Of a DNA stretch of 64,000 nt, positions 2,466-16,132 are shown piece by piece. The position numbers and the translations under genes are program-made. Numbering within the stretch: position 1 is the first letter of the stretch; each line of letters begins with the position of its first letter. This DNA is from Bradyrhizobium sp. ORS 278 (GTDB taxonomy: Bacteria; Pseudomonadota; Alphaproteobacteria; Rhizobiales; Xanthobacteraceae): the NCBI RefSeq assembly GCF_000026145.1, contig NC_009445.1, positions 7,067,001 to 7,131,000 on the forward strand. The letters are read 5' to 3'. Below the pieces are notes generated by a model. That model was not told the DNA's origin. It did no database searches and saw nothing but the letters and a program-made list of their open reading frames with translations.

Positions 2466-3740
2466 ATGACCGAACAGGCCGGCAACCTTCACCACGTTGT
2501 CATCGTCGGCGCCGGCTTCGGCGGCCTGGAAGCCACCTATCGGCTCGCCGGTGCGCCCGTCCGCATCACGCTGATCGACCGCCGCAACCATCATCTGTTC
2601 CAGCCGCTGCTGTATCAGGTCGCCACCGCCTCGCTGGCGACCTCGGAGATCGCCTGGCCGATCCGCTCGCTGATGCGCGACCGGCCGGAGGTCACGACCC
2701 TGTTCGCCAACGTCAAGGGCGTCGACAAGGCAGGGCGACGCGTGCTGCTCGACGATGGCGCCGACGTCAGCTACGACACGCTGGTGCTCGCCACCGGCGC
2801 GCGGCATGCCTATTTCGGCCATGATGAATGGGAGCCGTTCGCGCCTGGCTTGAAGACGCTGGAGGATGCGACGACGCTGCGGCGCCGCATCCTGGTGGCG
2901 TTCGAGCGCGCCGAACGCGAGATCGACCCGGCCAGGCGCGCGGCCTGGATGACCTTCGTGATCATCGGCGCCGGCCCGACCGGGGTCGAACTGGCAGGAA
3001 CCATCGCCGAGATGGCACGCGCGACGCTGCCGCCCGATTTCCGCAGCATCGATACGCACGAGGCGCGCGTGGTGCTGATCGAAGCCGGACCGCGCGTGCT
3101 CGGCGGCTTTCCCGAAGACCTTTCGGCCTACACGCAGAAGTCCCTCGAGAGCATCGGCGTGGAGGTCGTGCTCGGCCAGCCCGTGACCGAGTGCACCGCC
3201 GACAACGTCGTCTATGGCGGCCGCTCGGTGGCGACGCGAACGGTCATATGGGCCGCCGGTGTCCGCGCCTCGCGGGCGGCGGAATGGCTTGGCGCTCCGG
3301 CGGACCGGGCCGGACGGCTGCAGGTCGCGCCCGACCTGACCGTGCCCGGCCACCCGGAGATCTTCGCTATCGGCGACACCGTGACGGTGCCGGCCTGGGA
3401 CGGCAAACCGGTCCCCGGTATCGCGCCGGCGGCGAAGCAGGAGGGCCGCTATGTCGCCCAGGCCATCAAGGCGCGCCTCGCCGGGCAGGCGCTGCCGCCG
3501 TTCCGCTATCATCACGTCGGCAGCCTTGCCCAGATCGGCAAGCGGCTCGCGGTGATCGATTTCGGCTGGATCAAGCTGCGCGGCGCCCTGGCATGGTGGA
3601 TCTGGGGCCTAGCCCACATCTACTTCCTGATCGGGCTGCGCAACCGGCTCAGTGTCGCCCTGAGCTGGCTGTGGATTCATGCGCGAGACCAGCGCGCGGC
3701 GCGCCTGATCACCCAGGGCAGCAGCAAGGTGATGGACTGA
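2466..3740 (+). CDS. ndh: type II NADH dehydrogenase (NAD(P)/FAD-dependent)
   Basis: Single-subunit, non-proton-pumping NADH:quinone oxidoreductase of 424 residues. The FAD-binding Rossmann motif is VVIVGAGFGGLEA near the N-terminus and the NADH-binding one is VIIGAGPTGVELAG at about 160-173. The second FAD contact is the IFAIGDT motif near residue 300. The family-typical HHLFQPLLYQVATA segment (residues 38-51) is present. A C-terminal amphipathic or hydrophobic stretch (WIWGLAHIYFLIGLRNRLSV) would hold it on the inner face of the membrane. The gene stands alone. Its role is probably NADH reoxidation feeding quinol to oxidases such as the bd oxidase at 28239. Confidence 0.92.
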   Translation: MTEQAGNLHHVVIVGAGFGGLEATYRLAGAPVRITLIDRRNHHLFQPLLYQVATASLATSEIAWPIRSLMRDRPEVTTLFANVKGVDKAGRRVLLDDGADVSYDTLVLATGARHAYFGHDEWEPFAPGLKTLEDATTLRRRILVAFERAEREIDPARRAAWMTFVIIGAGPTGVELAGTIAEMARATLPPDFRSIDTHEARVVLIEAGPRVLGGFPEDLSAYTQKSLESIGVEVVLGQPVTECTADNVVYGGRSVATRTVIWAAGVRASRAAEWLGAPADRAGRLQVAPDLTVPGHPEIFAIGDTVTVPAWDGKPVPGIAPAAKQEGRYVAQAIKARLAGQALPPFRYHHVGSLAQIGKRLAVIDFGWIKLRGALAWWIWGLAHIYFLIGLRNRLSVALSWLWIHARDQRAARLITQGSSKVMD

Positions 3741-3860
3741 CGTCTGATTAAAGAATGAGCAATTCGCCTGCTTTGCAGGATCGTTTCGCCCCGCGGTCGC
3801 CGCATGAACCGAACAAACCACTGACACAGAACCTATTTTGGAGATTGCCCACGCGCCGGC

Positions 3861-3872
3861 AATGTACACAAT
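3861..3872. promoter_or_regulatory. candidate GntR/FCD operator abutting the sigma-54 promoter
   Basis: AATGTACACAAT agrees at 10 of 12 positions with ATTGTATACAAT, a palindrome typical of FCD-subfamily GntR operators. It touches the -24 element of the atzF promoter, where a bound repressor would block sigma-54 polymerase. A similar site (ATTGCATACAAA, also 10 of 12) lies upstream of the divergent transporter operon at 16065. The likely binder is the GntR protein encoded at 7482-8213. This is inference from motif resemblance only. Confidence 0.35.
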
Positions 3873-3887
3873 GGCACGGCGCTTGCT
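3872..3887 (+). promoter_or_regulatory. sigma-54 (RpoN) promoter of atzF
   Basis: TGGCACGGCGCTTGCT matches the sigma-54 consensus TGGCACG-N4-TTGC at every defined base, with the invariant GG and GC ten bases apart. Transcription would start near 3898, leaving a leader of about 70 bases before the GTG at 3970. A short dyad CCTGC-TTT-GCAGG at 3767-3779, about 100 bases upstream, is in the right range for an enhancer site but is not an NtrC consensus. Confidence 0.85.
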
Positions 3888-3969
3888 AACCTCGACGTCA
3901 GACCGGCGACGCGGAGCGTAACGATATGGCAAGCGAGACTTCGGGCTCACGACAGACGTGGAGCGCCGC

Positions 3970-5760
3970 GTGAGCGAAACCGTCGCTGAAATCCTCGCCG
4001 CCCATCGCGCCGGCCTGATCACACCCCGAGACACAATCGCCCGCTGCTACGAGCGGATTCGCGCCCATGGCGATCCCGCGATCTTCATCAATCTGCGTGA
4101 CGAGGCCGAGGCGCTGGCCGAGGCGGACAGCCTGCTCGGGAAAGATCCCGCCGCGCTGCCGCTCTACGGCGTGCCGGTTGCGGTCAAGGACAACATCGAC
4201 GTTGCCGGCCTGCCGACCACCGCCGCCTGCCCGGCCTTCGCCTATACGCCCACGCGGGATTCGACCGCGGTGGCGCGGCTGCGGGCGGCCGGCGCGATCA
4301 TCATCGGCAAGACCAATCTCGACCAGTTCGCCACCGGCCTCGTCGGCGCGCGGTCGCCCTATGGCATTCCGAAAAACCCGGTGCGCGGCGATCTGGTGCC
4401 GGGCGGCTCGAGCTCCGGCTCGGCGGTCGCCGTGTCGGCGGGTCTCGTTCCGCTCTCGCTTGGAACGGACACAGCCGGCTCGGGCCGCGTGCCGGCGATG
4501 CTGAACAACATTGTCGGGTTGAAGCCGAGCCTTGGCATGATCTCGACCACCGGACTGGTGCCGGCCTGCCGGACGCTCGACTGCATCTCGGTGTTCTCGC
4601 TGACGGTCGACGATGCGGTCACCGCGCTGTCTGTGATGACGGCGCCCGATCAGCTCGATCCGTTCTCGCGTGACCGGCCGCTGGCCGCGGTGACGACCTT
4701 TCCCAAGGGGGTAAAGCTCGGCGTTCCCCGTCCCGGCCAACTGATCTTCTTCGGCGACAAGGCCGCGGAAGCCGCCTATGGCGCGGCCGCGGCGCGCTTC
4801 GTCAAGCTCGGCGCCGAGCTGGTCGAATTCGATCTCGAGCCGTTCTATGAGACGGCGCGGCTGCTCTATGAAGGTCCGTGGGTCGCCGAGCGCTATCTCG
4901 TGATCCGCGATCTGCTGGCGTCGGATCCCGACGCGATTCACCCGGTGACGCGCGAGATCACCATCGGCGGCGCCCGCGGCAGCGCGGCCGACACCTTCGC
5001 GGCGCTGTATCGGCTGCAGGCGCTGCGCAAGGTCGCCGAGCGCACCTTCGGCGAGATCGATGCGATGCTGCTGCCGACCGCGCCGACCGCCTACACGACC
5101 GCGGAGGTGCTCGCCGATCCGATCCTGCTCAACAGCCGGCTCGGCACCTACACCAACTTCGTCAACCTGCTCGATCTGTGCGGCCTCGCAGTGCCGGCCG
5201 CGATGCGTGGCGACGGCATTCCGTTCGGCGTCACGCTGCTGGCGCCCGCCGGCCGCGATGCCGCGCTCGCCAGCCTGGGCCGCGCCTTCCATGCGGACAC
5301 CGCGCTGCCAGTCGGCGCCAAGCCGGTGCCGCAGCCGCCGCTCGCGCCGATATCGCCGTCGCTGCATGGCGACGAGATCGCCGTCGTCGTGGTCGGCGCA
5401 CATCTCTCCGGCATGGCGCTGAATCACGAGCTGACCAGCCTCGGCGGCCGTATGCTGGAGGCGGCATCGACCGCGCCGGACTACAAGCTCTACGCGCTGT
5501 CGACGACGCCGCCCAAGCCCGGCATGCTCAGGATCGAGGATGGCAAGGGGACCGCGATGGTCGTCGAACTATGGGCCCTGTCGGCGGCGAGCTTCGGCAA
5601 GTTCGTCAACCTCATCCCGCCGCCGCTGTCGATCGGGACGATCAGGCTGGCCGATGGCCGCAGCGCCAAGGGCTTTCTGGTCGAGCCCGCCGCACTCGAC
5701 GGCGCACGCGACATTTCGGAATTCGGCGGCTGGCGCGCCTACATGGCGCAGAAGGGCTGA
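3970..5760 (+). CDS. atzF: allophanate hydrolase
   Basis: Cytoplasmic amidase-signature enzyme of about 596 residues that splits allophanate to ammonia and CO2. The catalytic triad is readable from this start: Lys73 (AVKDNID), cis-Ser147 in GGSSSGS and nucleophile Ser171 in GTDTAGS, with the family's 24-residue Ser-Ser spacing. The amidase domain covers about residues 1-440. The remainder (about 465-596) matches the allophanate-hydrolase C-terminal domain (HLSGMALNHEL onward). GTG at 3970 is chosen because GGAG lies six bases before it; GTG at 3958 is possible. No urea carboxylase gene is near, so the supply of allophanate is more likely the AtzE/AtzH route encoded beyond the IS element. Transcription is predicted from a sigma-54 promoter. 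Confidence 0.92.
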   Translation: MSETVAEILAAHRAGLITPRDTIARCYERIRAHGDPAIFINLRDEAEALAEADSLLGKDPAALPLYGVPVAVKDNIDVAGLPTTAACPAFAYTPTRDSTAVARLRAAGAIIIGKTNLDQFATGLVGARSPYGIPKNPVRGDLVPGGSSSGSAVAVSAGLVPLSLGTDTAGSGRVPAMLNNIVGLKPSLGMISTTGLVPACRTLDCISVFSLTVDDAVTALSVMTAPDQLDPFSRDRPLAAVTTFPKGVKLGVPRPGQLIFFGDKAAEAAYGAAAARFVKLGAELVEFDLEPFYETARLLYEGPWVAERYLVIRDLLASDPDAIHPVTREITIGGARGSAADTFAALYRLQALRKVAERTFGEIDAMLLPTAPTAYTTAEVLADPILLNSRLGTYTNFVNLLDLCGLAVPAAMRGDGIPFGVTLLAPAGRDAALASLGRAFHADTALPVGAKPVPQPPLAPISPSLHGDEIAVVVVGAHLSGMALNHELTSLGGRMLEAASTAPDYKLYALSTTPPKPGMLRIEDGKGTAMVVELWALSAASFGKFVNLIPPPLSIGTIRLADGRSAKGFLVEPAALDGARDISEFGGWRAYMAQKG

Positions 5761-5903
5761 GAACAGCGAAGCCGTAGAGCTTGTGAGCCAATTTGAGTTC
5801 AGGGCTGAGTTTGCGACGAGGGGGCTGTCGCCGCGGGATAGCCGTTGTGGGCGGCTCTGTGCGGCGGATTGTCCCGGAGGATCCCTCGGATGCCGCTCCC
5901 GGC

Positions 5904-7290
5904 GACTATGATGCTGCTTTTTGACAGGCGATGAGGTGCAATCCTTGCAGAAGGTTGTTGGTGAACGCGTACCAGCTCACGACGGCGCGAACCTTGTCGA
6001 TGCCGCGTACCGTCACTTGCCGGAGGTCCCAGTTGCGCCAGCGGGCGTGGATGCATTCGCACAGCGAGCGGAGCTGATACTGAGCCTTGCCGGCTTCGCT
6101 CGCCATGCGCGCTCGCCAGGCCGCCACACCAGGGCCATCGGTATCTCGGGGCAGATAAGGATCAACACCGCTTTTTTGCGAGCGCGGCGGACAGTAGATC
6201 TCGATGTTCTGGCCATGCGCCCATTCGATGTCGTCGCCACGGCAGTATCCGCCATCGACGAGGTAGCGCCTGGGCAGGCGTTGCAGCTTGTCGCGCAGCC
6301 GCTCCAGCATCGGTCGCATCAGGCCGCCGTCTGATCCGTTGTTGTCGATGTCGATTGCGACCACGATCATCGCAGCTGCAGCGCTGACGACCTGCACGTT
6401 GTAGGCGGGACGGAAGCCGGCATCGGCCATCTTCATCCGCCGCGCCTGCGGATCGGTGGTGGAGGCCCGAGGCTCCTTCGGCTTCTTGCCGTTACCGCCT
6501 TTTTCCTCGAGCTTCTGGCGCTTGCGCTTGATCTCCTCCAGCGCCGCCTGCGCCGCTTCGACCTTCTGTTTATGCTCGCGTGCGGCGCGCTCACGCGCCG
6601 CGCGGATGCGCCGGTTGCTGGCTTCTGGATCTGCATCGACTTCCCGCTTGAGCTCTTCCACCACCTCCGTTGCTTCCGCCAGCTTCTGCTGCAGCCTCGC
6701 TTCGCGCCGGAACGAGCTGGCCCCCGCATTGGCGCGGATCCGCACCCCGTCCTGTGCCAGCGTATCGAGATCGACCAGCCCGGCCTCGCTCAACGCCGCC
6801 AGATGTTCGCTCATCAGGCGGTCGAGCACATCGGCACAGCCGACGCGGAAGTCCGATAGCGTGTGATAGTTCAGCGATACCCCGCCACACAGCCAGCGAT
6901 AGGCATCATGGCTCTCGCACAGGCGATCCAGCGCCCGAGCACTGCCGACGCCGTCGCTGGTGGCATAGAGCCAGAGCGCCAGCAAAAGGCGTGGCGACGG
7001 TGCCGGATGACCAGGCCTGTTCTCCCGCGCCTTCACTCGGTCTTCCAACTCGCTCAGGTCGAGCGTCTCGACATAGGTCCAGATCATCCGCGCCGGATGA
7101 TCCTGCCCGATCAGGCTGTCGATATCGACCGCGCGCAGCTCGACCTGGTTGCGCTCCGGAACCCGCAGACGAGGCGCACCCTTCGGAAGCTCCCGCGCTT
7201 TGGGACCCGACTGCTCCGGCAATCCATCGAAAAGCTCGTCCTTAGCCATCATGACCTCCAGCAAACCGCTCCGCTCAGAGAATCATAGTC
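5904..7290 (-). mobile_element. IS1182 family insertion sequence
   Basis: About 1.39 kb element with one transposase gene. The proposed ends are the inverted matches GACTATGAT at 5904-5912 and its complement at 7282-7290, which continue imperfectly inward (11 of 13). The left match overlaps the transposase stop codon. No clear target-site duplication is visible next to these ends, so the exact boundaries are uncertain. The element sits between atzF and the GntR gene, two genes whose 3' ends would otherwise face each other. Confidence 0.65.
5906..7264 (-). CDS. IS1182 family transposase
   Basis: 452 residues, intact frame. The N-terminal region has the helical DNA-binding part typical of IS1182/IS5-like transposases (DIDSLIGQDHPARMIW, then RLLLALWLYAT). 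A Lys/Glu-rich coiled coil at about residues 190-260 precedes the DDE core: a first Asp in LAQDGVRIRAN, a second Asp in YLVDGGYCRGDD, and a C-terminal helix with CECIHARWRNW in place of the usual YRQR-type Glu region. ATG codons at 7252 and 7249 are alternative starts. No frameshift or internal stop is seen, so the copy may be active. Confidence 0.93.
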   Translation of the reverse strand: MLEVMMAKDELFDGLPEQSGPKARELPKGAPRLRVPERNQVELRAVDIDSLIGQDHPARMIWTYVETLDLSELEDRVKARENRPGHPAPSPRLLLALWLYATSDGVGSARALDRLCESHDAYRWLCGGVSLNYHTLSDFRVGCADVLDRLMSEHLAALSEAGLVDLDTLAQDGVRIRANAGASSFRREARLQQKLAEATEVVEELKREVDADPEASNRRIRAARERAAREHKQKVEAAQAALEEIKRKRQKLEEKGGNGKKPKEPRASTTDPQARRMKMADAGFRPAYNVQVVSAAAAMIVVAIDIDNNGSDGGLMRPMLERLRDKLQRLPRRYLVDGGYCRGDDIEWAHGQNIEIYCPPRSQKSGVDPYLPRDTDGPGVAAWRARMASEAGKAQYQLRSLCECIHARWRNWDLRQVTVRGIDKVRAVVSWYAFTNNLLQGLHLIACQKAAS

Positions 7291-7323
7291 AGCGAGAATA
7301 GGCATCGAAAGATTCACAGCCTC

Positions 7324-7461
7324 GTAGGGTGGCCAAAGCGGCCGCCGCCAGGTGGCAGCGTGCCGACCGTCGGGCAGCGTGCTCATCAGTACGGCGGTGG
7401 GCACGGCGCCACAGACATCCCGTGCACGGAAACTGCACGGCAGCGCCTTTGCCCACCCTAC
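7324..7461. repeat. intergenic inverted-repeat element (GTAGGGTGG type)
   Basis: Terminal arms at 7324-7338 and 7447-7461 are complementary at 14 of 15 positions, enclosing about 108 bases with GTGGGCACG-type internal pieces. A related unit with GTGCCCACC / GGTGGGCACG arms lies at 58487-58572. It lies in the gap between the IS element and the 3' end of the GntR gene and has no coding content. Confidence 0.6.
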
Positions 7462-7481
7462 AGCTCAAACTGCGAGCTATG

Positions 7482-8213
7482 CTACACCGACACCGCGTAG
7501 ATCTCGTACTCGCCGCGGACCAGCTCGATATGGGCTTTCATCGCGCTCGCAGCACCTGCTTTGTCGCCGCGCATGATGGCGACGACGACGCGGTCGTGCT
7601 CGGCATGCGACTTGGCGAGACGGCCGAGGTTGCGGAACTGGGCGCGGCGGAACGGCTGCACCCGGACCCGCGTCGCCAAGGTGATCTCGGCGATATAGGT
7701 GTTATGCGCGCCCGCATAGATCGAATTGTGGAAACGCTCATTGACCTCGTGAAAGCGCTCGGGATTGCCGGCATGGCTGAGGTTGCGCAACTCCTCATGA
7801 ATGGCTTCGAGCCGCTGCCGCTCCACCGGCGTCATGCGCTGCGCGGCAAGCCCCGCGCACAGGCCTTCCAACTCGGCCATGGCCTCGAACATGCCCGTGA
7901 GACGATCGACGGAGGGGCGCGCGACGACGGCGCCGCGATGCGCGCGTGCCTCGATCAAGCCGGAGGCCGCAAGCTGGCGCAGCGCCTCGCGCACCGGCGT
8001 ACGTGACACGTTGAAGCGCTTCGCGATCTCGGTTTCGTCCAGCGGTGCGCCCGGCGCCAGCGCGCCACGCACGATGTCATCGGCGAGTTGCAGGCGCAGC
8101 TCCTCTGCGCGCGTGATCTTCGCCACCGCAGGCGGCGCACGCTCGGGGCGCGGCATCTCGGAAACGCGAGCGATCCGCTGGCGCGTGCGCGGCGGAAGAT
8201 CGTCCAGGCTCAT
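7482..8213 (-). CDS. GntR family regulator, FCD subfamily
   Basis: 243 residues. The winged helix covers about 35-105 (LRLQLADDIVRGALAPG, then the recognition part FNVSRTPVREALRQL). The all-helical FCD effector domain follows, with its metal/ligand pocket residues suggested by the HEVNERFHNSIY segment and the later HAEHDRVV. It is the last gene of the transporter/atzGEH run, three bases after atzH, so it is probably co-transcribed and ligand-responsive for the same substrate. Candidate operators are at 3861 and 16065. Confidence 0.9.
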   Translation of the reverse strand: MSLDDLPPRTRQRIARVSEMPRPERAPPAVAKITRAEELRLQLADDIVRGALAPGAPLDETEIAKRFNVSRTPVREALRQLAASGLIEARAHRGAVVARPSVDRLTGMFEAMAELEGLCAGLAAQRMTPVERQRLEAIHEELRNLSHAGNPERFHEVNERFHNSIYAGAHNTYIAEITLATRVRVQPFRRAQFRNLGRLAKSHAEHDRVVVAIMRGDKAGAASAMKAHIELVRGEYEIYAVSV

Positions 8214-8216
8214 GCC

Positions 8217-8609
8217 TCAGCCGCCTTTTGCTTCGTCGATGATGCTGACATGGGCGGCGACAATTCTCCAGCCCTCCGGAAACCGGATCCATGTCTGCAT
8301 CTGCCGCCCGACCTTGCCCGGCGCGCTGTCGCGATAGAACAGCGTGGAGGCGACGGCGGTGTCGCGGCCATAGGTCGAGATCACGGTGCGAGCCGTGCGC
8401 CGCATCAGTCCGATCGGCGACCGCGCCGAGCGGAACGCCGAGATCTCGCCATAGCCGTAGAGGTTCTCGCCGATGCCGTAGCGCAGCGTTCGCGCGTCGT
8501 TGCGAAACAGCTCGTCGAGCACGGCGACGTCGTTGCTGACCAGGGCCTGTTCATACCGCTGGAACTGGGCGGTGACCTCCGCGACGACGTCAGGCAGATC
8601 GACTTCCAT
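8217..8609 (-). CDS. atzH: AtzH-like protein (DUF3225), decarboxylating ureide amidohydrolase
   Basis: About 130 residues with a SnoaL/NTF2-like fold pattern: FQRYEQALVSNDVAVLDELF, GENLYGYGEI and a terminal GWRIVAAHVSII strand. This matches the AtzH/DUF3225 family, whose Pseudomonas member converts 1,3-dicarboxyurea to allophanate. The start at 8609 (MEVDLPDVV) lies inside the end of atzE, a 20-base overlap implying translational coupling. A longer in-frame reading to 8831 is only shadow of atzE. Assignment rests on family resemblance plus the atzG-atzE context. Confidence 0.82.
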   Translation of the reverse strand: MEVDLPDVVAEVTAQFQRYEQALVSNDVAVLDELFRNDARTLRYGIGENLYGYGEISAFRSARSPIGLMRRTARTVISTYGRDTAVASTLFYRDSAPGKVGRQMQTWIRFPEGWRIVAAHVSIIDEAKGG

Positions 8610-10053
8610 TCTCCAGAACTCCTCTCGGGGCCGGCGCGGCGGCCACGCCAAGCTGTTGCAAGGCGTGGGCCACACGCAATGCGACATGTTCACACCAGGG
8701 CGCGGCGATGATCTGCACGCCGATGGGCATCGGCGCGAGCGGAATCGGCACGGCGACGACGGGAAGTCCGATGAACGAGATCGGCTGGGTATGGATGCCG
8801 ATATTGGCGCGCACCGGTAGCTCGACGCCATCCAGCACGAAGGTTGCCTGCCCCAGTTTCGGCGCGACGCATGGCGTCGCGGGCGCGATCAGCACGTCGA
8901 CCGATCTGAACAGCTCCAGCACCTTCGCCCGATACCAGCGGCGGAATTTCTGCGCGCGGTCGACCATCGGCGCCGGGATCATCGCGCCGGCGATCAAACG
9001 ATCGCGCACCGCGGGATCGAAATCATCGGGACGCGTGCGCAGCCGGTCGAGATGCAGCGATGCACCTTCGGTCGTGCTGATGACGTAGGCCGCAGCGCGG
9101 GCGCGCGCCGCTTCGGGCACCTCGATGACCTGCGTCACCTTCAGAGCGGCGACAACGCGACTGACGGCTTCGGCCGCTTCGGGAAACAGGTTCTTCTGAA
9201 AGTGACCGCCGGCGATCGCGATGCGCAGACCGTCGAGCCCCTGCGAGAGCTGGCCAGACACCGGCTCCGGAGCACGCGAGGTGCAAGCGGCATCGTCGGA
9301 ATCCGGCCCCTGCATCACGTCATAGGCAAGCGCGAGATCCTCGACCGAGCGGGCGAACGGACCGAGATGATCGAGGCTCATCACGAACGGAAACGAGCGC
9401 GCGCGCGACAGCCGACCATAGGTCGGCTTCAGACCGAAGATGCCGCAGAACGACGAGGGCACGCGGATCGAGCCATTGGTGTCGGAGCCGAGCGCGATCG
9501 GCACCAGGCCGCCGCCGACGGCGCTGCCCGAGCCGCCCGACGAGCCGCCGCTCATCCGGGTCGGATCATGCGGATTGCGCGACGGGCCATCATGGATGTT
9601 CTCGCCGGTGAAGTCATAGGCGTATTCGCCCATGTTGAGCGCGCCAACGAGAACGGCGCCCGCGGCTTCCATTCGCTCGATCAGCGTCGAGTCGCGCGGC
9701 GCGGGTGCGCGATCACGATTGATCTTGGAGCCGGCGCGGGTCGGCAGATCAGCGACGTCGAACAGGTTCTTTACCGCGAACGGCACCCCGGCGAGCGGCC
9801 CGACAGGTTTTCCGGCCGCGATATCGGCATCGACGGCGCGTGCCTTCGCCCGCGCCCGCTCGGCGGTGATGTCGGTAAAGGAATTGAGCACACCATCGCG
9901 GGCCGCGATCCGCGCCAGCGCGGCGTCGGTGGCCTCGACAGCGGTGAGCTTGCGGGCGGCGACCGCGGCGGCAATGGCGCCTGCGGTCATCTCGGAAGAA
10001 TCAAGCGGTGAAGACACTGGCAGGCTCGGCTTCGTCAGGCAGGGAGAATTCAT
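8590..10053 (-). CDS. atzE: AtzE-type amidohydrolase (1-carboxybiuret hydrolase catalytic subunit)
   Basis: 487-residue amidase-signature enzyme related to GatA. The triad is Lys95 (FAVKNLF), Ser171 in SGGSSGG and Ser195 in GSDTNGS, again with 24-residue spacing. In known systems AtzE works as a complex with the small subunit AtzG and converts 1-carboxybiuret to 1,3-dicarboxyurea. The preceding atzG overlaps its 5' end. Starts at GTG 10017 and ATG 9990 are also possible because family members vary at the N-terminus. The true substrate could be another N-carboxylated or ureido compound, since no cyanuric acid hydrolase is encoded nearby. Confidence 0.85.
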   Translation of the reverse strand: MNSPCLTKPSLPVSSPLDSSEMTAGAIAAAVAARKLTAVEATDAALARIAARDGVLNSFTDITAERARAKARAVDADIAAGKPVGPLAGVPFAVKNLFDVADLPTRAGSKINRDRAPAPRDSTLIERMEAAGAVLVGALNMGEYAYDFTGENIHDGPSRNPHDPTRMSGGSSGGSGSAVGGGLVPIALGSDTNGSIRVPSSFCGIFGLKPTYGRLSRARSFPFVMSLDHLGPFARSVEDLALAYDVMQGPDSDDAACTSRAPEPVSGQLSQGLDGLRIAIAGGHFQKNLFPEAAEAVSRVVAALKVTQVIEVPEAARARAAAYVISTTEGASLHLDRLRTRPDDFDPAVRDRLIAGAMIPAPMVDRAQKFRRWYRAKVLELFRSVDVLIAPATPCVAPKLGQATFVLDGVELPVRANIGIHTQPISFIGLPVVAVPIPLAPMPIGVQIIAAPWCEHVALRVAHALQQLGVAAAPAPRGVLENGSRSA

Positions 10054-10192
10054 CGACCAGCTTCGCCATTTTCAGCGAGACCTCGAGATTGGCGCGGATC
10101 GCCGGCCGCCATGCGTCATTGATCGGCAAGCCCAAGGCGCGCCCGACCACGTCGATATAATCGTCCCAAGATTTGTCCGATGGCTCAGCCAT
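10001..10192 (-). CDS. atzG: AtzG-like small subunit (DUF4089)
   Basis: 63 residues: an all-helical GatC-like protein ending in the family signature LPDEAEPASVF. The middle reads WRPAIRANLEVSLKMAKLVDEF, the helix that in AtzG packs on AtzE. A strong ribosome binding site (GAGGGGGAG) precedes the ATG, and the gene starts 13 bases after the ABC ATPase stop. Its 3' end overlaps atzE. Its presence directly before atzE is the main reason for calling the pair AtzEG rather than a generic amidase. Confidence 0.85.
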   Translation of the reverse strand: MAEPSDKSWDDYIDVVGRALGLPINDAWRPAIRANLEVSLKMAKLVDEFSLPDEAEPASVFTA

Positions 10193-10205
10193 GCAGCTCT
10201 CCCCC

Positions 10206-12032
10206 TCAATGCGCCGGCAGCGGCGGATGCGGAATCGCGGTCAGCAGCTCGCGCGTATAGGCGTCCTGTGGATCACCTAGCACACGTTCGGACGTGCCTT
10301 CCTCGACGATTCGGCCCGACCGCATCACGATCACACGATCGCACAACAGCCGCACCACGTTCAAATCATGGGAGACGAACAGATAGCTCATCCCTAACTG
10401 CTGCTTGAGATCCTGCAGCAGGTTGAGCACGACCGCCTGCACCGAGACGTCGAGCGCCGCGGTCGGCTCGTCGAGGATGACGAGCTTCGGGTGCAACGCA
10501 ATCGCCCGCGCGATGCCGACGCGCGCTTTCTGTCCGCCCGACAATTGGTGCGGAAAACGGTCGAGGAGGTTCAGCGGCAGGCCGACCATGGTGGCGAGTT
10601 CCTCGCAGCGCGCACGCAGCGCATCGCGGCCTTTGATGTCGCCGAGCTGCAGGATCGGATCGGCGATGGCGCGGGCCGCCGTGAAGCGCGGATTGAGGCT
10701 GTCGGTCGGATCCTGAAACACCATCTGGATGCGGCTGCGCTGCGGCAGCCGCGCGAAGGCCTGCGGCAGGATGTTGCCGATCTCCTCGCCGTCGAAGCTG
10801 ATGCGGCCCGAGGTCTGATCGAGCAACCGCATCACCATCATCGACGTCGTCGACTTGCCGCAGCCGGACTCGCCGACCAGCCCGACGCTCTCGCCATGAC
10901 CGACGGTGAAGCTGATGCCGTCGACGGCACGGAACACCTCGGGCTCGACCGCCGGCTTGCGCCCGAACAGTTTCGACAAGGTCGCGGAGGCGCCCTGGCG
11001 GGGATATTCCTTGACCAGCTTGTCGACGAGGAGAAGCGGCTTGCTTTTACTCGTACTATGCTCGCGTTCTCCGCTCCGCTCGCCCTCCCCGCTCCGCTCG
11101 TCACCCCCGGGCTTGACTCGGGGGTCCATCTCCTTGAGCGACTCTTGCGACGTGGGATGGATCGCCGGGTCAAGCCCGGCGATGACGGGCTGTGGTGTGG
11201 GCGACGCCTCATCCTCCGGCAGGAGATCGCGCAGAGACACACCGAGCCGCGGCGTCGCGCGCATCAGCTTGCGTGTGTACGGATGCTGCGGATTGGCGAA
11301 AATATCGGTGGCCTTGGCGGTCTCGACCACGCGGCCCTTCTCCATCACGACGACGCGGTCGCAATAGGCTGCCGCGAGGCCGAGATCATGCGTGATCAGG
11401 ATCGTCGACATGCCCCGGCTCTTGGTGAGCTCCACGACGAGATCCATCACCGCCTTCTGCGTGGTTACGTCGAGGCCGGTGGTCGGCTCGTCGGCGATCA
11501 GGAGTTGCGGATTGCAGGCCAGCGCCAGCGCGATCACGACGCGCTGGCACATGCCGCCGGACAATTCGAACGGATAGGCGTGATAGCGCTCGCGCGGGCG
11601 GGTGATCTTGACCTGCTCGAGGGCGGCGATGGCCTTCTCGGCGCGATCGCTCGCGGCCGCCTGGGCGTGCTGCTTCAGCACATCCTCGATCTGCTGGCCG
11701 ACTTTCCGGATCGGGTTGAGCGCGGCGCGCGGGTTCTGGAAGATCATGGAAATCTCCCGCCCGCGCAGGTCGCGCATCTCGGTCTCCGCGGCCGCCTTGA
11801 CGTCGACGCCGGAGAACATCACCGAGCCCTCGGCGATGCGCCCGGCGCGGTCGAGAATGCGCATCACGGCGTAGGACGTCACCGACTTGCCCGAGCCGGA
11901 CTCGCCGACGATCGCGAGTGTCTCGCCCTTGGCGACGGAGATGTCGACATGCTGCACCGCCTTGACGATGCCGCGGCGAGTGGAGAATTCGACGGTGAGA
12001 TCGCGAACGTCGAGCAGCGGCTGCGCGGTCAT
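10206..12032 (-). CDS. peptide/nickel-type ABC transporter, fused double ATPase
   Basis: 608 residues containing two complete OppD/OppF-type ATPases in one chain. The first has Walker A GESGSGKS (about 43-50), signature LSGGMCQR and Walker B LLIADEPTT. The second has GESGCGKS, LSGGQKAR and LVILDEPTA, and both have the C-terminal peptide-type tail (HPYTRKLMRA, DAYTRELLTA). It energizes uptake through the two permeases encoded upstream. The linker between the halves (about residues 281-312) is not ABC sequence: it is a translated copy of an intergenic palindromic repeat (see 11100-11188). Confidence 0.93.
   Translation of the reverse strand: MTAQPLLDVRDLTVEFSTRRGIVKAVQHVDISVAKGETLAIVGESGSGKSVTSYAVMRILDRAGRIAEGSVMFSGVDVKAAAETEMRDLRGREISMIFQNPRAALNPIRKVGQQIEDVLKQHAQAAASDRAEKAIAALEQVKITRPRERYHAYPFELSGGMCQRVVIALALACNPQLLIADEPTTGLDVTTQKAVMDLVVELTKSRGMSTILITHDLGLAAAYCDRVVVMEKGRVVETAKATDIFANPQHPYTRKLMRATPRLGVSLRDLLPEDEASPTPQPVIAGLDPAIHPTSQESLKEMDPRVKPGGDERSGEGERSGEREHSTSKSKPLLLVDKLVKEYPRQGASATLSKLFGRKPAVEPEVFRAVDGISFTVGHGESVGLVGESGCGKSTTSMMVMRLLDQTSGRISFDGEEIGNILPQAFARLPQRSRIQMVFQDPTDSLNPRFTAARAIADPILQLGDIKGRDALRARCEELATMVGLPLNLLDRFPHQLSGGQKARVGIARAIALHPKLVILDEPTAALDVSVQAVVLNLLQDLKQQLGMSYLFVSHDLNVVRLLCDRVIVMRSGRIVEEGTSERVLGDPQDAYTRELLTAIPHPPLPAH
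11100..11188. repeat. palindromic repeat located in frame inside the ABC ATPase gene
   Basis: Two stem-loops, CCCCCGGGCTTGACTCGGGGG and CGCCGGGTCAAGCCCGGCG, separated by a spacer, form one repeat unit. The same unit type occurs between genes at 12053-12183 and 35595-35679. Here it is translated on the minus strand as the linker VIAGLDPAIHP ... MDPRVKPGGD, keeping the frame of the fused ATPase open. Confidence 0.8.
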
Positions 12033-12052
12033 GATGCTCTCCCGTATTGGCG

Positions 12053-12183
12053 TCCGTCATGCGCGGGCTTGACCCGCCTGCGGGGCAGAAGCCCCTTCGG
12101 CGCGGCGAAGGCCTGCGCATCCATCAAAACCAACAAGTTCGTCGTCGGTCGATGGATTGCCGGGTCGAGCCCGGCAATGACGG
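12053..12183. repeat. palindromic intergenic repeat
   Basis: Unit with arms CGCGGGCTTGACCCGC and TTGCCGGGTCGAGCCCGGCAA, ending AATGACGG, filling the gap between the double ATPase and the permease. It is the same family as the copy inside the ATPase gene. It may act as an mRNA stabilizer or attenuator between transporter genes. No gene lies here. Confidence 0.7.
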
Positions 12184-12209
12184 AGTTTTGGTGTGGTCCG
12201 CTCATCGCC

Positions 12210-13109
12210 TCACGTCCTGCGCTGCGGGTCGACGATGTCACGCAGACCGTCGCCGAGCAGGTTGAAGCAGAACACGGCGATCATCAGCGCCAGGCCGGGG
12301 AACAGCGCGATCCACCATTCCCCCGACACCATGAAGGACGCGCCTTCGGCGACCATGATGCCCCATTCCGCCGTGGGCGGCCGCACGCCGAGGCCGATGA
12401 AGGACAGGCCCGCTGCGTTGAGGATCGCGTAGCCCATGGTGAGCGACATCTGCACGATCATGATCGGCATGATGTTGGGCAGGATGTGGCCGAGCAAGAT
12501 GCGCATCTCGCTGTTGCCCGACAGCCGTGCCGCCTGCACGAAGCCGGCATTGCGGCGGACATTGGCTTCCGCGCGCGCGACGCGCGCATATAGTGGGAAG
12601 TTCACGATCGCGGTGGCGATGATGATGTTCTGCACGGTGTTGCCGAGCGCGGCGACGATGCCCATCGCCAGCACGAACAGCGGGAACGCCATGATGGTGT
12701 CGGCGACGCGTCCGACGATGCGGTCGGTCCAGCCGCCGAAGAACCCGGCTGCGACTCCGGCGAGGCCGCCCATGAAAAACACCAGCGCGACCGAGGCCAC
12801 CGCGATGAAGGTGTCGAGCCGGGTCGCGACCACGACGCGGCTGAAGATGTCACGGCCGAGCTGATCGGTGCCGAACCAGTGCGCCGCCGATGGCGGCTTC
12901 AATGCGGATGCCGTATCGCTGGCCAACGGGTCATAAGGCACGATCCACGGCCCGAGGACCGCCGCGAACAAGATGACCACCAGCAGCCCGAAGGCGAAGC
13001 CGGTGACTTTGTTTTCGGCGAGCACGTAGCGCGTGTGCCCGATCAGGGCCACGATGCTGGACGTGCGGGCGGATGCGGCAGGTTCAATGGTCGGCGCGAC
13101 AGTGCTCAT
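12210..13109 (-). CDS. peptide/nickel-type ABC transporter permease (DppC/OppC type)
   Basis: 299 residues, about six transmembrane helices. The N-terminal OppC-type segment (VPYDPLAS, then HWFGTDQLGRDIFSR) is followed by the binding-protein-dependent transport fold with the EAA-like loop AARLSGNSEMRILLGHILPN. It overlaps the preceding permease by four bases (ATGA), so the two are co-translated. It pairs with that protein as a heterodimeric channel for the solute bound by the 14316 binding protein. Confidence 0.93.
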   Translation of the reverse strand: MSTVAPTIEPAASARTSSIVALIGHTRYVLAENKVTGFAFGLLVVILFAAVLGPWIVPYDPLASDTASALKPPSAAHWFGTDQLGRDIFSRVVVATRLDTFIAVASVALVFFMGGLAGVAAGFFGGWTDRIVGRVADTIMAFPLFVLAMGIVAALGNTVQNIIIATAIVNFPLYARVARAEANVRRNAGFVQAARLSGNSEMRILLGHILPNIMPIMIVQMSLTMGYAILNAAGLSFIGLGVRPPTAEWGIMVAEGASFMVSGEWWIALFPGLALMIAVFCFNLLGDGLRDIVDPQRRT

Positions 13110-14119
13110 CCTTCCAACCTCACACGCGGGTCGATGACGCCATAGAGAATGTCGATGACGAGGTTGAGGACGACGTACATGACCGCCATGGTCAGCACGA
13201 AGCCCTGCACCGGCGCAAAGTCGGAGGCGATCAGCGCCTCGACTGCATAGGAGCCGATGCCAGGCCAGGCGAACACCTTTTCCACCAGCACATTGGCGCC
13301 GAGCAGGAAGGAGAACACCATGGACAGGGTCGTGATCACCGGCAGCATCGCGTTGCGGAAGGCGTAGGTGACGGTGACCGTCGAGGGCGACAGGCCGGAC
13401 GCGCGCGCGGTGCGGACGAACTCCGACGACAGCACCGACAGCATCGACGCCCGTGTCATGCGCGCGACCGGCGCCAGCGAGAAGATCGCGAGCGTCGCCG
13501 CGGGCAGAATCAGCTGGCTCAGCGCCGAGCGGAACGCCTCGCCGTCACCAGCGATCAGCGTATCGATCAGATAGAACCCGGTCACGCTGTTCGGCGCGCT
13601 GTAGAACACGTCGAGCCGGCCGAGCGGCGCTGGCGACCAGCCGAGGCGGAAATAGAACACATAGACCAGCACGAGCCCGGTGAAGAACACCGGCAGCGAA
13701 ACACCGGCCGTCGTGACGACGCGACAGGTGTGGTCGATCCATGACCCCGGCCGCGTCGCCGCGAGCACGCCGAGCGGCAGCGCAATTGCAACCGAGACCA
13801 GAAGGCCAAGCAGTGTCAGTTCGGCCGAGGCCGGCAGGCGGTTGCGAATTTCGGTGGCGACAGGTTGGCCGGTCGTCAGCGAGCTGCCGAGATCCCCATG
13901 GGCGAGATCGACGGTGTAGCGGAAGAACTGCTCGACCAGCGGCTTGTCGAAGCCGAGCTTCTTGCGGATCTGCTCGACGGCTTCCTTAGTGGCGGCGGGG
14001 CCGGCGAAATAGGCGGCGGGATCGCCGGGCAGCGCGCGCGTGAGCAGGAAGGTGACGATCACGACGCCGATCAGCGACGGAATGGCGAAGGCGAGGCGCT
14101 TTGCGACGAGGCTCAGCAT
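13106..14119 (-). CDS. peptide/nickel-type ABC transporter permease (DppB/OppB type)
   Basis: 337 residues. The N-terminus LAFAIPSLIGVVIVTFLLTRALPGDP is characteristic of DppB. It is followed by the FRYTVDLAHGDLGSSLTTGQPV extracytoplasmic region, several membrane helices and the EAA-like motif RTARASGLSPSTVTVTYAFRNA. It lies between the binding-protein gene and the DppC-type gene in a minus-strand run and overlaps the latter by four bases. Confidence 0.93.
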   Translation of the reverse strand: MLSLVAKRLAFAIPSLIGVVIVTFLLTRALPGDPAAYFAGPAATKEAVEQIRKKLGFDKPLVEQFFRYTVDLAHGDLGSSLTTGQPVATEIRNRLPASAELTLLGLLVSVAIALPLGVLAATRPGSWIDHTCRVVTTAGVSLPVFFTGLVLVYVFYFRLGWSPAPLGRLDVFYSAPNSVTGFYLIDTLIAGDGEAFRSALSQLILPAATLAIFSLAPVARMTRASMLSVLSSEFVRTARASGLSPSTVTVTYAFRNAMLPVITTLSMVFSFLLGANVLVEKVFAWPGIGSYAVEALIASDFAPVQGFVLTMAVMYVVLNLVIDILYGVIDPRVRLEG

Positions 14120-14170
14120 GGGCGGGGCCTCGCTGAAATGGGTACCGTTCGCGCTGCAAAGAGCAGACGG

Positions 14171-14272
14171 CTCCCTCCCCCCTTGTGGGGGAGGGTTGGA
14201 GAGAGGAGTGAGCCGAGAAGGTGGTGCCTGTGGCTACCCCCCTCCCTGCCCCTCCCCCACAAGGGTGGAGGG
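14171..14272. repeat. C/G-tract palindromic intergenic repeat
   Basis: Left unit CTCCCTCC-CCCTTGTGGGGGAGGG (14171-14195) and right unit CCCCTCCCCCACAAGGGTGGAGGG (14250-14272) are mutually complementary and each is self-palindromic. They sit in the 196-base gap between the binding-protein and DppB genes. Such structures between a binding-protein gene and its permease often limit read-through, giving excess binding protein; that role is inferred. Confidence 0.6.
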
Positions 14273-14315
14273 AATGAAAGAGATCGGGCCGCCTCACTCA
14301 CCCCAGCCACGCCGC

Positions 14316-15941
14316 TCACCCCTTCACCAGCGCGCGATAGTCGAGGCGGCGGTGGAACCAGTACTGATAGCCGGAGATGTTCTTCTGCATCGCGACGTTG
14401 ACGAACGGCTGATACAGCGGAATGCGCGGCACGTCGGCGAAGGCGAGGTCGACGAAGCCCTTGACGTCGGCATCGTAGGCCGCCTTGTCGCCCGTCGAGG
14501 CAGCATCGCGGGCGCCGTTGATGAGCTTGTCCATCTCCGGCGACTTGTAGCTCATCGTGTTGAACACGGAATTGTTGCCGTGATAGCACCAGTAGAAGAA
14601 GTATTCGGGGTAATCGAGCCAGCCTGAGAAGATGTTGGTGAAGAGCGGCATCTCCTTCTTGTTCAGCTCGGTGCGCCAGTTGGCGCCGGGCACCTTGTTG
14701 ATCGTGGTCTTGATCCCGAGCTGCGCGAGGCTCTCCTGCACCAGCACGCAGAGCGGCTCGTTGACCTGCGCGAAGTTCAGATCGAACGAGATCGTCGTCT
14801 CGAACCCGTTGGCGTAGCCGGCCTCGGCCAGCAGCGCCTTCGCCTTCTCCATGTCGGTGACATACTTCGTCGGCTGCGGCCAGGCCACCTCGGTCGCCTT
14901 GTCGGCCGGTGCCCCGAACATCGGATTGGCGAGGCCGAACATTACGGCGTCGATGATCTTCTGATAGGGCATGGCATAGGCGAGCGCCTGGCGCACCTTG
15001 GGATTATCGAATGGCGGCTTGGTCACGTTCATGCCGATGTACTGGATGCCGTTCGAGATCGGCAGCGAAATCACGGTGTGCTTGCCGTTCGACTTCATCT
15101 CCTGGAAGTCCTTGTTCGGCAGCTCATAAGAAATGTCGGCATCGCCGCGCTCCAGCAGCGCGCGGCGGTTGCCGGCCTGCGGCACCATGCGCCAGATCAC
15201 GCGCCTGATCTTCGGCAGCGGCCCGCACACCCAGTCGTCGTTGCGTTCCATGACGACCTCGGTGCCGGCGGTCCACTTCGTCACCTTGTAGGCACCGGAG
15301 CCTGCCGTCTGCTGCTTGGTGTATTCGAGACCCCACGGATCCTTGTCGGTGGCGTTCTTCTTTACCAGCTCGGAATTGACCACACAGGGCACGATGACGG
15401 CGAGATCCGGAATCGTCAGACGGTCCTTCTTCAGAAAGTCGACGCGCACGGTGTAGTCGTCGACGATGACGAACTGCTCCGGCTTAGTCAGCGAGCCCGC
15501 GCTCATCTGAAAGGTCGGGAAGCCACCGACGCTGACCGCGCGGTCGAGCGACCATTTGACGTCCTTGGCGGTGACCGGCGTGCCATCGTGGAATTTGGCG
15601 TTCTTGCGCAGCTTGAAGGTCGCCGACATGTCGCCGATTGTCATGTCCTCGGCAAGCTCGGGCTTGAACTTGTCGCGGTCGTAATACGGGATGCCGCCGG
15701 GGCCACTCTTCATCTCGTGGCTGATCAGACGGTCGTAGCAATTCCACGACACCTCATAGCCCGGCACGTTGGTGCCGACGCCATGGATGTCGAGATTGTT
15801 GGGGCCGCCCTCGGACACGATGAGCAGCGTCTCGGACCGCGCGTCGGCCTTGGCGGAGGACATCACCGCCGGCGCCATCGGCAGCGCGGCGCCTGCCGCC
15901 AAACCGGACACGGACTTCAGAAAATCGCGACGCTTCATCAA
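14316..15941 (-). CDS. ABC transporter substrate-binding protein, family 5
   Basis: 541 residues, periplasmic. A twin-arginine signal (MKRRDFLKS, then an Ala-rich stretch to about residue 32) indicates Tat export, as is common for this family in rhizobia. The family 5 core is visible (LAEDMTIGDMSATFKLRKNA, FHDGTPVTAKDVKWSLDRAV, and NVTKPPFDNPKVRQALAYA). It is the first gene of the transporter/atzGEH/gntR run and is preceded by a sigma-54 promoter. Family 5 proteins bind peptides, opines, nickel chelates and other compounds; here a ureide or biuret-like nitrogen source is inferred from the enzymes. Confidence 0.93.
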   Translation of the reverse strand: MMKRRDFLKSVSGLAAGAALPMAPAVMSSAKADARSETLLIVSEGGPNNLDIHGVGTNVPGYEVSWNCYDRLISHEMKSGPGGIPYYDRDKFKPELAEDMTIGDMSATFKLRKNAKFHDGTPVTAKDVKWSLDRAVSVGGFPTFQMSAGSLTKPEQFVIVDDYTVRVDFLKKDRLTIPDLAVIVPCVVNSELVKKNATDKDPWGLEYTKQQTAGSGAYKVTKWTAGTEVVMERNDDWVCGPLPKIRRVIWRMVPQAGNRRALLERGDADISYELPNKDFQEMKSNGKHTVISLPISNGIQYIGMNVTKPPFDNPKVRQALAYAMPYQKIIDAVMFGLANPMFGAPADKATEVAWPQPTKYVTDMEKAKALLAEAGYANGFETTISFDLNFAQVNEPLCVLVQESLAQLGIKTTINKVPGANWRTELNKKEMPLFTNIFSGWLDYPEYFFYWCYHGNNSVFNTMSYKSPEMDKLINGARDAASTGDKAAYDADVKGFVDLAFADVPRIPLYQPFVNVAMQKNISGYQYWFHRRLDYRALVKG

Positions 15942-15978
15942 GTGCTCCCACGGACTACGACCGGCGAGAGCAGAGATC

Positions 15979-15993
15979 GCAATCTTCGTGCCA
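15979..15993 (-). promoter_or_regulatory. sigma-54 (RpoN) promoter of the transporter/atzGEH operon
   Basis: On the minus strand the sequence is TGGCACGAAGATTGC, a full match to TGGCACG-N4-TTGC with GG and GC ten bases apart. The predicted start of transcription is near 15967, about 26 bases before the ATG at 15941. Its match to the promoter of atzF at the other end of the block suggests a common nitrogen-limitation control. Confidence 0.85.
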
Positions 15994-16064
15994 AGCGCAG
16001 CAGCGAACCAAGTCTTTGATTAAATTTGGCTTTGCTTAGGAAGAGGCAATCGCTCCTCCGTCTC

Positions 16065-16076
16065 ATTGCATACAAA
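16065..16076. promoter_or_regulatory. candidate GntR/FCD operator
   Basis: ATTGCATACAAA matches 10 of 12 positions of the FCD-type palindrome ATTGTATACAAT. It lies about 75-85 bases upstream of the sigma-54 promoter at 15979-15993, in the surrounding AT-rich stretch. A similar site is at 3861. Binding by the co-encoded GntR protein is inferred. Confidence 0.3.
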
Positions 16077-16132
16077 TAACGAAATTTGATTGCGTTTTAG
16101 GCAGAGCTCGACTGCTGCCCGTGGGACCGGCA

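Follow-up and report, generated by a model that had tools for sequence, protein, structure and literature searches.

A conserved atzGEH-atzF locus with a peptide-type importer in Bradyrhizobium sp. ORS 278 and its candidate role in triuret catabolism

Introduction

Here we describe a locus of Bradyrhizobium sp. ORS 278 that encodes homologues of AtzG, AtzE and AtzH together with the allophanate hydrolase AtzF, a peptide-type ABC importer and a GntR regulator; it lies in a stretch of 64,000 nucleotides (NC_009445.1, positions 7,067,001 to 7,131,000), hereafter called the window. The order atzG-atzE-atzH, the presence of atzF and the pocket residues of AtzH are shared with the atzDGEHF genes on plasmid pADP-1 of Pseudomonas sp. 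ADP, where 1-carboxybiuret is the AtzEG substrate (PMC6219798). In contrast to pADP-1, which is a conjugative plasmid, the Bradyrhizobium genes are a core chromosomal set, the block holds no atzD, and importer and GntR genes stand in the same run. With the TrtA-(TrtB)-BiuH-AtzF pathway of Herbaspirillum sp. BH-1 and Rhizobium leguminosarum, our system shares the residue fingerprint of the triuret hydrolase TrtA, carboxybiuret as the predicted first product and AtzF as the last enzyme, but AtzGE and AtzH would here replace decarboxylation and the biuret hydrolase BiuH (PMC7948467). The trtA-biuH-atzF genes of nitrifiers come with a Bmp-type ABC transporter (PMC12625717), whereas here a Dpp-type importer and/or a putative membrane permease, PermX, would serve. 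Sigma-54 promoters, and a trtA gene that forms a separate unit, further distinguish the present case from the TrtA-BiuH-AtzF pathway.

The oxalurate genes hpxWXYZ of Klebsiella and other enterobacteria belong to the same circle. Loci of this type by gene content (L090, L093, L094) have AtzG, AtzE and AtzH homologues in the same order; in our block, however, HpxW, a GGT, is missing, AtzF is present and signature residues of AtzE differ. Clusters of ggt with atzGEH have been described, as have beta-proteobacterial clusters of atzF, an ABC transporter and atzG-atzE-atzH, the latter published in 2018 and, in the accessible parts of that paper, given no substrate or upstream enzyme; genomic contexts were said there to add little further evidence for a specific AtzH function (PMC6219798). 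These clusters contain the same kinds of genes as ours, to which we add conservation in Alphaproteobacteria, a link to TrtA, and promoters. AtzEG has been named as an enzyme able to use the TrtA product, with no genomic link visible in the portions of the source at hand (PMC7948467), and trtA, biuH and atzH are listed together in nitrifiers, which hints at a TrtA-AtzH association (PMC12625717). Among the listed literature matches on AtzE/G/H, triuret/TrtA, trtB and allophanate hydrolase, in part available as excerpts, none linked TrtA genes to atzGEH clusters, and none was found on triuret together with Bradyrhizobium. The cluster type is already known; its link to TrtA is not found in print within these sources.

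On the sequence evidence presented below, we consider it fairly likely that the locus forms the major part of a sigma-54 regulon for nitrogen limitation, which would process triuret and similar small polyureides while bypassing biuret.

Results

The ORS 278 chromosome encodes, far from the window at 2.56 Mb, a protein that scores higher against TrtA than against BiuH (Table 1). TrtA and BiuH differ at F35, N41, A134, E160, Y187 and I205 (TrtA residues), and most changes to the BiuH residue reduce triuret activity, A134S being the exception; the TrtA product is 1-carboxybiuret, and the enzyme is reported to be highly specific for triuret (PMC7948467). The BiuH consensus at 35, 41, 134, 160 and 187 is Y, Y, S, D and T, with V at 205 in the BiuH proteins compared here. 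At 13 positions, the 2.56-Mb protein reads DFFNEKKAECYQI, identical to TrtA and including the catalytic D24, K129 and C162 as well as all six positions that separate TrtA from BiuH; a further enzyme at 4.45 Mb shows the BiuH pattern at these 13 positions. We infer that the 2.56-Mb protein hydrolyses triuret. Across all fetched loci, 46 hydrolase matches read DFFNEKKAECYQI and are TrtA-like (42 distinct genes, four genomes being duplicated), 11 read DFYYEKKSDCTQV and are BiuH-like (10 distinct), one differs from TrtA at a single position and two Salipiger proteins fit neither pattern.

The block is core to the genus, with AtzH in 191 of 195 genus genomes and in 181 of the 183 good ones. A TrtA query matched 184 of the 195 at E ≤ 1e-20; 183 of these lie at E ≤ 3e-78, a level set after the scores had been seen, and the next genome (G176) follows only at 6e-56. 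In 48 of the 183 TrtA-level genomes a second hydrolase at E ≤ 1e-20, and with it a BiuH, was not found; with at most 14 candidates scored per genome, a BiuH could have been missed in some of them. All 48 have AtzH, and 31 also lack the AtzD family. In these 31 genomes, therefore, no enzyme other than TrtA is seen that would supply carboxybiuret, and none other than AtzGE that would consume it.

Beyond the genus, the remaining 388 genomes of a phylum draw contained AtzH in 32 and TrtA in 25 cases (TrtA level E ≤ 3.2e-75, likewise set after the scores were seen; the next matches, at 1.8e-70 and weaker, are at BiuH level). Both occurred together in 16 genomes where 2.1 were expected (p 9e-14; relatives are not independent, and all E-values and p-values given here ignore kinship). 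A BiuH-level match was present in all nine TrtA genomes without AtzH versus 9 of the 16 with AtzH (one-sided p 0.02), a distribution that fits AtzGEH standing in for BiuH.

In several organisms trtA and the atz genes are physically linked. Terrarubrum flagellatum (NZ_CP091852.1) carries the genes for the solute-binding protein (SBP), DppB, DppC, ATPase, TrtA, PermX, AtzF, AtzG, AtzE and AtzH (hpxZ) in this order as one run, and the encoded proteins are 49-82% identical to those of ORS 278 (SBP over part of its length only; atzG by annotation). The nodule isolate Microvirga ossetica has AtzH-AtzF-TrtA-PermX-AtzE, Paroceanicella profunda TrtA-PermX-AtzG-AtzE. Bradyrhizobium sp. S69 (L171) holds TrtA and PermX inside the locus, which there is without the importer. 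In three genus genomes trtA adjoins atzF, with PermX between them in two; these (L201-L203) were picked because listings showed trtA near atzH and are examples, not a rate. Outside the genus, 34 AtzH loci passed the cut-off and 29 were examined (all but those of G447, G488, G533, G561 and G564): TrtA stands in nine of these, BiuH, AtzF and GGT in eight each, cyanuric acid hydrolase (CAH) and a Dpp-type importer in four each. One of the clusters (L071) unites GntR, BiuH, CAH, AtzF, AtzE, AtzH and TrtA, and in another (L085) Dpp-type importer genes lie within a TrtA-BiuH-AtzF-AtzE-AtzH cluster. In ORS 278 itself, trtA is followed by the gene for PermX, a pair that recurs in 9 of the 11 further loci examined from the genus. 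PermX has about 550 residues and about 11 hydrophobic windows (L197:10254-11909), and it matched no Pfam, NCBIfam or PDB profile; homologues are annotated 'regulator' in two public records, and some motifs suggest that it may have a purine-permease-like fold.

Only two sites in the 64 kb agree at all 11 positions with the sigma-54 -24/-12 consensus, and they precede the importer-atzGEH-gntR run and atzF (Table 1); three others score 10. The limits of the block in the initial annotation of this DNA (3861-15993) enclose both. As background, 4.8% of 330-bp stretches of the window contain a site at ≥9, 1.3% at ≥10 and 0.46% at 11. The importer promoter scores at least 9/11 in all 25 Nitrobacteraceae loci tested (24 different contigs, L069 being the same as L112); among three loci from outside this family, two fall below that score and the stretch from the third (L216) is too short. 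Before atzF, at least 9/11 is reached in all 20 genus loci, and at least 10 in 19. Upstream of trtA the score is at least 9/11 in 32 of 32 loci, equal to 28 distinct genomes, and at least 10 in 24 of the 28; these loci comprise the 20 best TrtA matches and 12 further loci that were selected, with 4 genomes represented twice, and are no random sample. Before the CAH and BiuH genes of ORS 278 no such site was found, the best scoring 7/11. Thus, the distant trtA shares the promoter type of the locus, while the CAH and BiuH genes do not. A sigma-70 promoter scan of 3600-16300 gave no site where 1.8 were expected. For Bradyrhizobium sp. DOA9, lowered levels of atzE and several dpp/ddp genes, which may correspond to those of our locus, are reported in an rpoN mutant (PMC13207237). 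The predicted promoters point to a locus that would belong to a nitrogen-limitation regulon under sigma-54 and, presumably, NtrC.

The amidase encoded in the window scores 744.6 bits against NF006631 (cut-off 461) and has its best PDB match in 6c62 (488 bits), with the Lys and GGSSGGSG motifs of the Ser-Ser-Lys amidase signature aligned. A PF13318 gene, as expected for the partner of AtzE, lies upstream; its AtzG-like product matches chain C of 6c62 at E 0.9 only. AtzE is 53-55% identical to the Pseudomonas sp. ADP enzyme. In a tree of 38 rows it falls into a 26-row clade (100/98) in which the gene neighbours are carboxybiuret-type for 22 rows, GGT for one (Acidithiobacillus caldus) and neither for three, whereby the label 'carboxybiuret context' is in part owed to an atzF neighbour of atzE in the same family. 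The ADP enzyme pairs with that of L088 (100/100), whose cluster has TrtA and BiuH, and with that of L085 at 97/84. Twelve alignment columns separate AtzE proteins in carboxybiuret context (at least 22 of 25) from six GGT-linked ones. The window protein has the carboxybiuret-type residue at 12/12 and ADP AtzE at 8/12, N91, E122, H313, D323 and D330 included, where six of seven GGT-linked proteins have F, A, Y, R and E; the seventh, from A. caldus, is mostly of the carboxybiuret type. The columns were chosen afterwards because they separate the groups and hence are support, not proof. From these comparisons, 1-carboxybiuret is the predicted AtzE substrate.

AtzH scores 201.7 against HpxZ (cut-off 135) and is identical at the equivalents of Tyr22, Arg46, Arg63, Arg66, Arg73 and Arg96, an arginine-rich pocket; the Tyr and Arg46 are kept in 2rcd too and so are not diagnostic for AtzH. 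The SBP reached no NCBIfam cut-off, and its best structure matches, 5u4o, 6hlx (AgaA), 8upi and 1uqw, are too distant to indicate a substrate.

Profile searches of the open reading frames in the window placed atzG-atzE-atzH, the importer and the GntR gene in a single minus-strand run (Table 1). Within it, dppB and dppC overlap by 4 bp and atzE and atzH by 20 bp, while 13 bp lie between the ATPase gene and atzG and 3 bp between atzH and gntR. All genes named in the initial annotation were found, and its statement that the block itself holds neither an AtzD-family nor a biuret hydrolase gene was borne out. On the other hand, atzF on the plus strand is convergent to this run and hence outside it, and the annotation had left an IS1182-family element unmentioned. 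All 20 genus neighbourhoods fetched show the order atzF> <gntR <atzH <atzE <atzG, and 19 of them have the importer; the arrangement is therefore not a matter of chance. In named relatives, 66 of 80 loci had enough flank for gene scoring: AtzH was found in 66, GntR in 64, AtzF in 63, the ATPase in 62, SBP, DppB and DppC in 61 and CAH in none. Importer, atzG, atzE, atzH, gntR and atzF are all co-directional in two Rhodopseudomonas palustris loci (L160, L172); thus, atzF belongs to the system.

Table 1. Predicted features of the locus and of the distant triuret hydrolase gene; positions refer to the window unless stated otherwise
Feature	Position	Strand	Evidence
TrtA-type triuret hydrolase (predicted)	own chromosome 2560442-2561167 (2.56 Mb)		PDB TrtA 280 bits vs BiuH 228
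Sigma-54 (-24/-12) site TGGCACGAAGATTGC before importer-atzGEH-gntR run	15979-15993	-	11/11 consensus positions
Solute-binding protein (SBP), family 5, periplasmic, Tat-type signal	14316-15941	-	PF00496 E 5e-83
ABC permease, DppB type	13106-14119	-	PF00528/PF19300
ABC permease, DppC type	12210-13109	-	PF00528/PF12911
Fused DppD-DppF-type ATPase	10206-12032	-	two ABC_tran stretches + oligo_HPY
AtzG-like, non-catalytic AtzE partner	10001-10192	-	PF13318 E 1e-18
AtzE-family amidase, predicted 1-carboxybiuret hydrolase	~8590-9990, open reading frame open to 10053	-	NF006631, TIGR02715 over cut-off
AtzH/HpxZ, predicted 1,3-dicarboxyurea decarboxylating hydrolase	8217-8609	-	PF11533, NF033625
GntR/FCD regulator, final gene of run	7482-8213	-	PF00392, PF07729
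IS1182-family element	5897-7297 (possible ends nearby); transposase 5906-7264, to which the strand refers	-	NF033551 370 bits
AtzF allophanate hydrolase	3958-5760	+	Amidase + AH_C; NF006043, TIGR02713, PF21986; over family cut-off
Sigma-54 (-24/-12) site TGGCACGGCGCTTGC before atzF	3872-3886	+	11/11 consensus positions

Most of the space between the convergent genes atzF and gntR is taken up by the IS1182-family element, which has imperfect 19-nt end repeats. Since it is absent from all 20 genus neighbourhoods, it probably is a recent insertion; it is also absent from the 66 named loci with enough flank. No damage by the element is visible, and it is not part of the locus function.

An absence of upstream enzymes did not hold for the genome as a whole: CAH, BiuH and a TrtA-type hydrolase are all encoded outside the block. 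An AtzD-family gene is found at 6.57 Mb, about 0.5 Mb from the window at 7.07 Mb, and its product is CAH-like (PDB 4nq3 456 bits versus barbiturase 255). A co-regulated AtzD gene had been proposed as the sign of a plain cyanuric acid pathway; an AtzD-family gene does exist, but its promoter type gives no sign of co-regulation. BiuH at 4.45 Mb has 78% identity with its R. leguminosarum counterpart across 203 common alignment columns and scores 417 bits against NF050097 (cut-off 370). It adjoins an apparent Bmp-type ABC transporter (L213), recognised by eye like those in L071, L073, L083, L086 and L087, while that in L085 was scanned. Linkage of BiuH to TrtA and AtzF was not found in this genome, where the three genes lie at 4.45 Mb, at 2.56 Mb and in the window.

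Discussion

In the proposed route, triuret or a close relative would be imported by the SBP-Dpp importer and/or PermX. TrtA, encoded together with this membrane permease at 2.56 Mb, would convert triuret to 1-carboxybiuret and NH3. AtzG-AtzE would then remove the terminal amide to give 1,3-dicarboxyurea, which AtzH would decarboxylate to allophanate ahead of its decay to urea, and AtzF would finally release NH3 and CO2. The TrtA, AtzEG and AtzF reactions are known from the literature, and the AtzH role was deduced by its authors from pathways in vitro; the proteins of this genome would perform the same reactions, and the importer may carry triuret or a relative. BiuH and CAH, unlinked and without a sigma-54 promoter, would be side entries or salvage enzymes, and cyanuric acid may enter via CAH where this is present. 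The initial annotation had pointed to a different nitrogen compound; a different chemistry is not needed, the likeliest intermediate being the same 1-carboxybiuret, now from triuret. Its broader idea of a dedicated locus for a nitrogen compound, probably a natural ureide and not simply cyanuric acid, agrees with the distribution of the AtzD family (120 of 195 genus genomes, versus 191 for AtzH) and with a CAH gene about 0.5 Mb off that has no sigma-54 promoter.

Several observations weigh against the triuret assignment. TrtA is unlinked in ORS 278 and stands within the locus in none of the 20 genus and only one of the 80 named loci. The importer is absent from 5 of the 66 named loci (L149, L162, L165, L171, L174), among them L171, the named locus with TrtA inside, and also from one of the 20 fetched genus genomes (G009). 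TrtA is also missing from the four genus genomes without AtzH and from one in which the AtzH match is weak; because these genomes are small or incomplete, the joint absence may be genome reduction. In the phylum draw, 9 genomes have TrtA but not AtzH, and 16 have AtzH but not TrtA; seven of the latter are of GGT type. ADP AtzE has the GGT-type residue at 4 of the 12 separating columns, and A. caldus AtzE, in the same clade and with ADP-type signature residues, yet adjoins a GGT gene. Furthermore, family-5 binding proteins usually bind peptides, and genes of allantoate amidohydrolase type (L075) and for AllG (L079) near the importer are hinting at allantoin-derived substrates.

The last points, and the peptide type of the importer itself, would also suit uptake of another ureide, such as a ureido-peptide, an allantoate derivative or another N-carbamoyl compound, which AtzGE would then trim. 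We regard this as unlikely: importers of the same family stand with TrtA in L216, L075 and L085, and TrtA is reported to be triuret-specific. Oxalurate catabolism of the Hpx type has a similarly low probability in our view. Here AtzG, AtzE and AtzH would correspond to HpxX, HpxY and HpxZ and turn oxalurate into oxamate, to be hydrolysed by HpxW. AtzH does pass the NCBIfam HpxZ equivalog cut-off, but ADP AtzH itself is named HpxZ, and so the name does not discriminate. GGT stands in 8 of the 29 non-genus AtzH loci, but never with AtzF, TrtA, BiuH or CAH (0 overlap, 8 vs 13; p 0.003), and our block has no GGT that could serve as HpxW. The five GGT genes of ORS 278 encode proteins 24-32% identical to the HpxW type of L093/L090, in contrast to 41-74% for GGTs beside atzGEH elsewhere (four of the five served as queries at the named loci, and the fifth was compared by identity separately). 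Moreover, AtzF has no use for oxalurate products, and the window AtzE is carboxybiuret-type at all 12 separating columns. GGT linkage, GGT identity and AtzE residues thus lowered the standing of oxalurate.

A cyanuric acid pathway with a dispersed AtzD, in which the CAH of ORS 278 feeds carboxybiuret to AtzGEH-AtzF as in pADP-1, appears about as improbable. It could draw on the CAH-like scores of the AtzD-family protein and on loci that CAH shares with atzE-atzH (L071, L074 and pADP-1); moreover, a TrtA-level match accompanies the AtzD family in every one of its 120 genus genomes, where the two carboxybiuret sources are thus indistinguishable. However, the AtzD family is patchy in a genus where AtzH is nearly universal, CAH is nearby in none of the 66 named loci, and its gene lacks the sigma-54 site, all of which lowered cyanuric acid as the main purpose. 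Cyanuric acid can enter the route secondarily but is not what the system originally served. Most remote is the notion that AtzF serves urea or guanidine carboxylation and merely neighbours atzGEH. AtzF is the sole AH_C match of the genome, and two DUF1989 matches lie at 4.55 Mb, but no urea/guanidine carboxylase over the TIGR02712 cut-off was found in the genome, and a carboxylase feeding AtzF was rejected on this ground. In addition, atzF stands beside atzGEH in 20/20 genus and 63/66 named loci and is co-directional with it in R. palustris.

Under the triuret assignment, the TrtA link gives atzGEH clusters outside s-triazine degraders, the role of which the 2018 study had left open (PMC6219798), a concrete candidate substrate and a triuret route that avoids biuret. 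Fluxes of purines and ureides through legume nodules are large. Because of these, and because oxidation of uric acid can yield triuret (PMC7948467), a core Bradyrhizobium pathway could be important to the recycling of nitrogen in nodules and soil; it could also influence what becomes of triuret in urea fertiliser. The link further makes a herbicide-era invention of AtzGE, an idea cited in PMC12625717, unlikely. We may tentatively speculate, without quite favouring it, that atzGEHF is an old triuret operon of Proteobacteria, found in nearly all Bradyrhizobium and equipped with an importer and nitrogen control of its own, and that the herbicide-era operon atzDGEHF of pADP-1 arose from such a set when CAH replaced the triuret hydrolase.

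Some related loci deserve mention. A TrtA-type hydrolase with the full TrtA fingerprint, 62% identical to that of ORS 278, is encoded on the IncF plasmid pACN001-B of E. coli (L218), next to fdrA, DUF1116, DUF2877, carbamate kinase and cytosine permease genes; 78 Escherichia plasmid records match the TrtA query at E ≤ 1e-40, the fingerprint having been read in the pACN001-B record alone. In L083, L084, L086 and L087, AtzH homologues cluster with TrtA and/or BiuH, with no AtzE in the fetched stretch; this suggests that AtzH-family proteins there may decarboxylate carboxybiuret. Genome G009 (L044, L207), without the importer at its locus, also has no PermX beside trtA. In A. caldus (L220:6664-12898), genes for a ring-opening amidohydrolase, ureidoglycolate lyase, xanthine dehydrogenase, atzG-atzE-hpxZ and GGT adjoin, possibly a mix of oxalurate and ring-opening chemistry. 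The CAH gene of ORS 278 lies near two genes for TonB-dependent receptors and an ExbB-type gene (L009:1746-9522), which could hint at outer-membrane uptake. Upstream of the importer operon, the window encodes a caspase-domain (Peptidase_C14) protein at 16133-17554.

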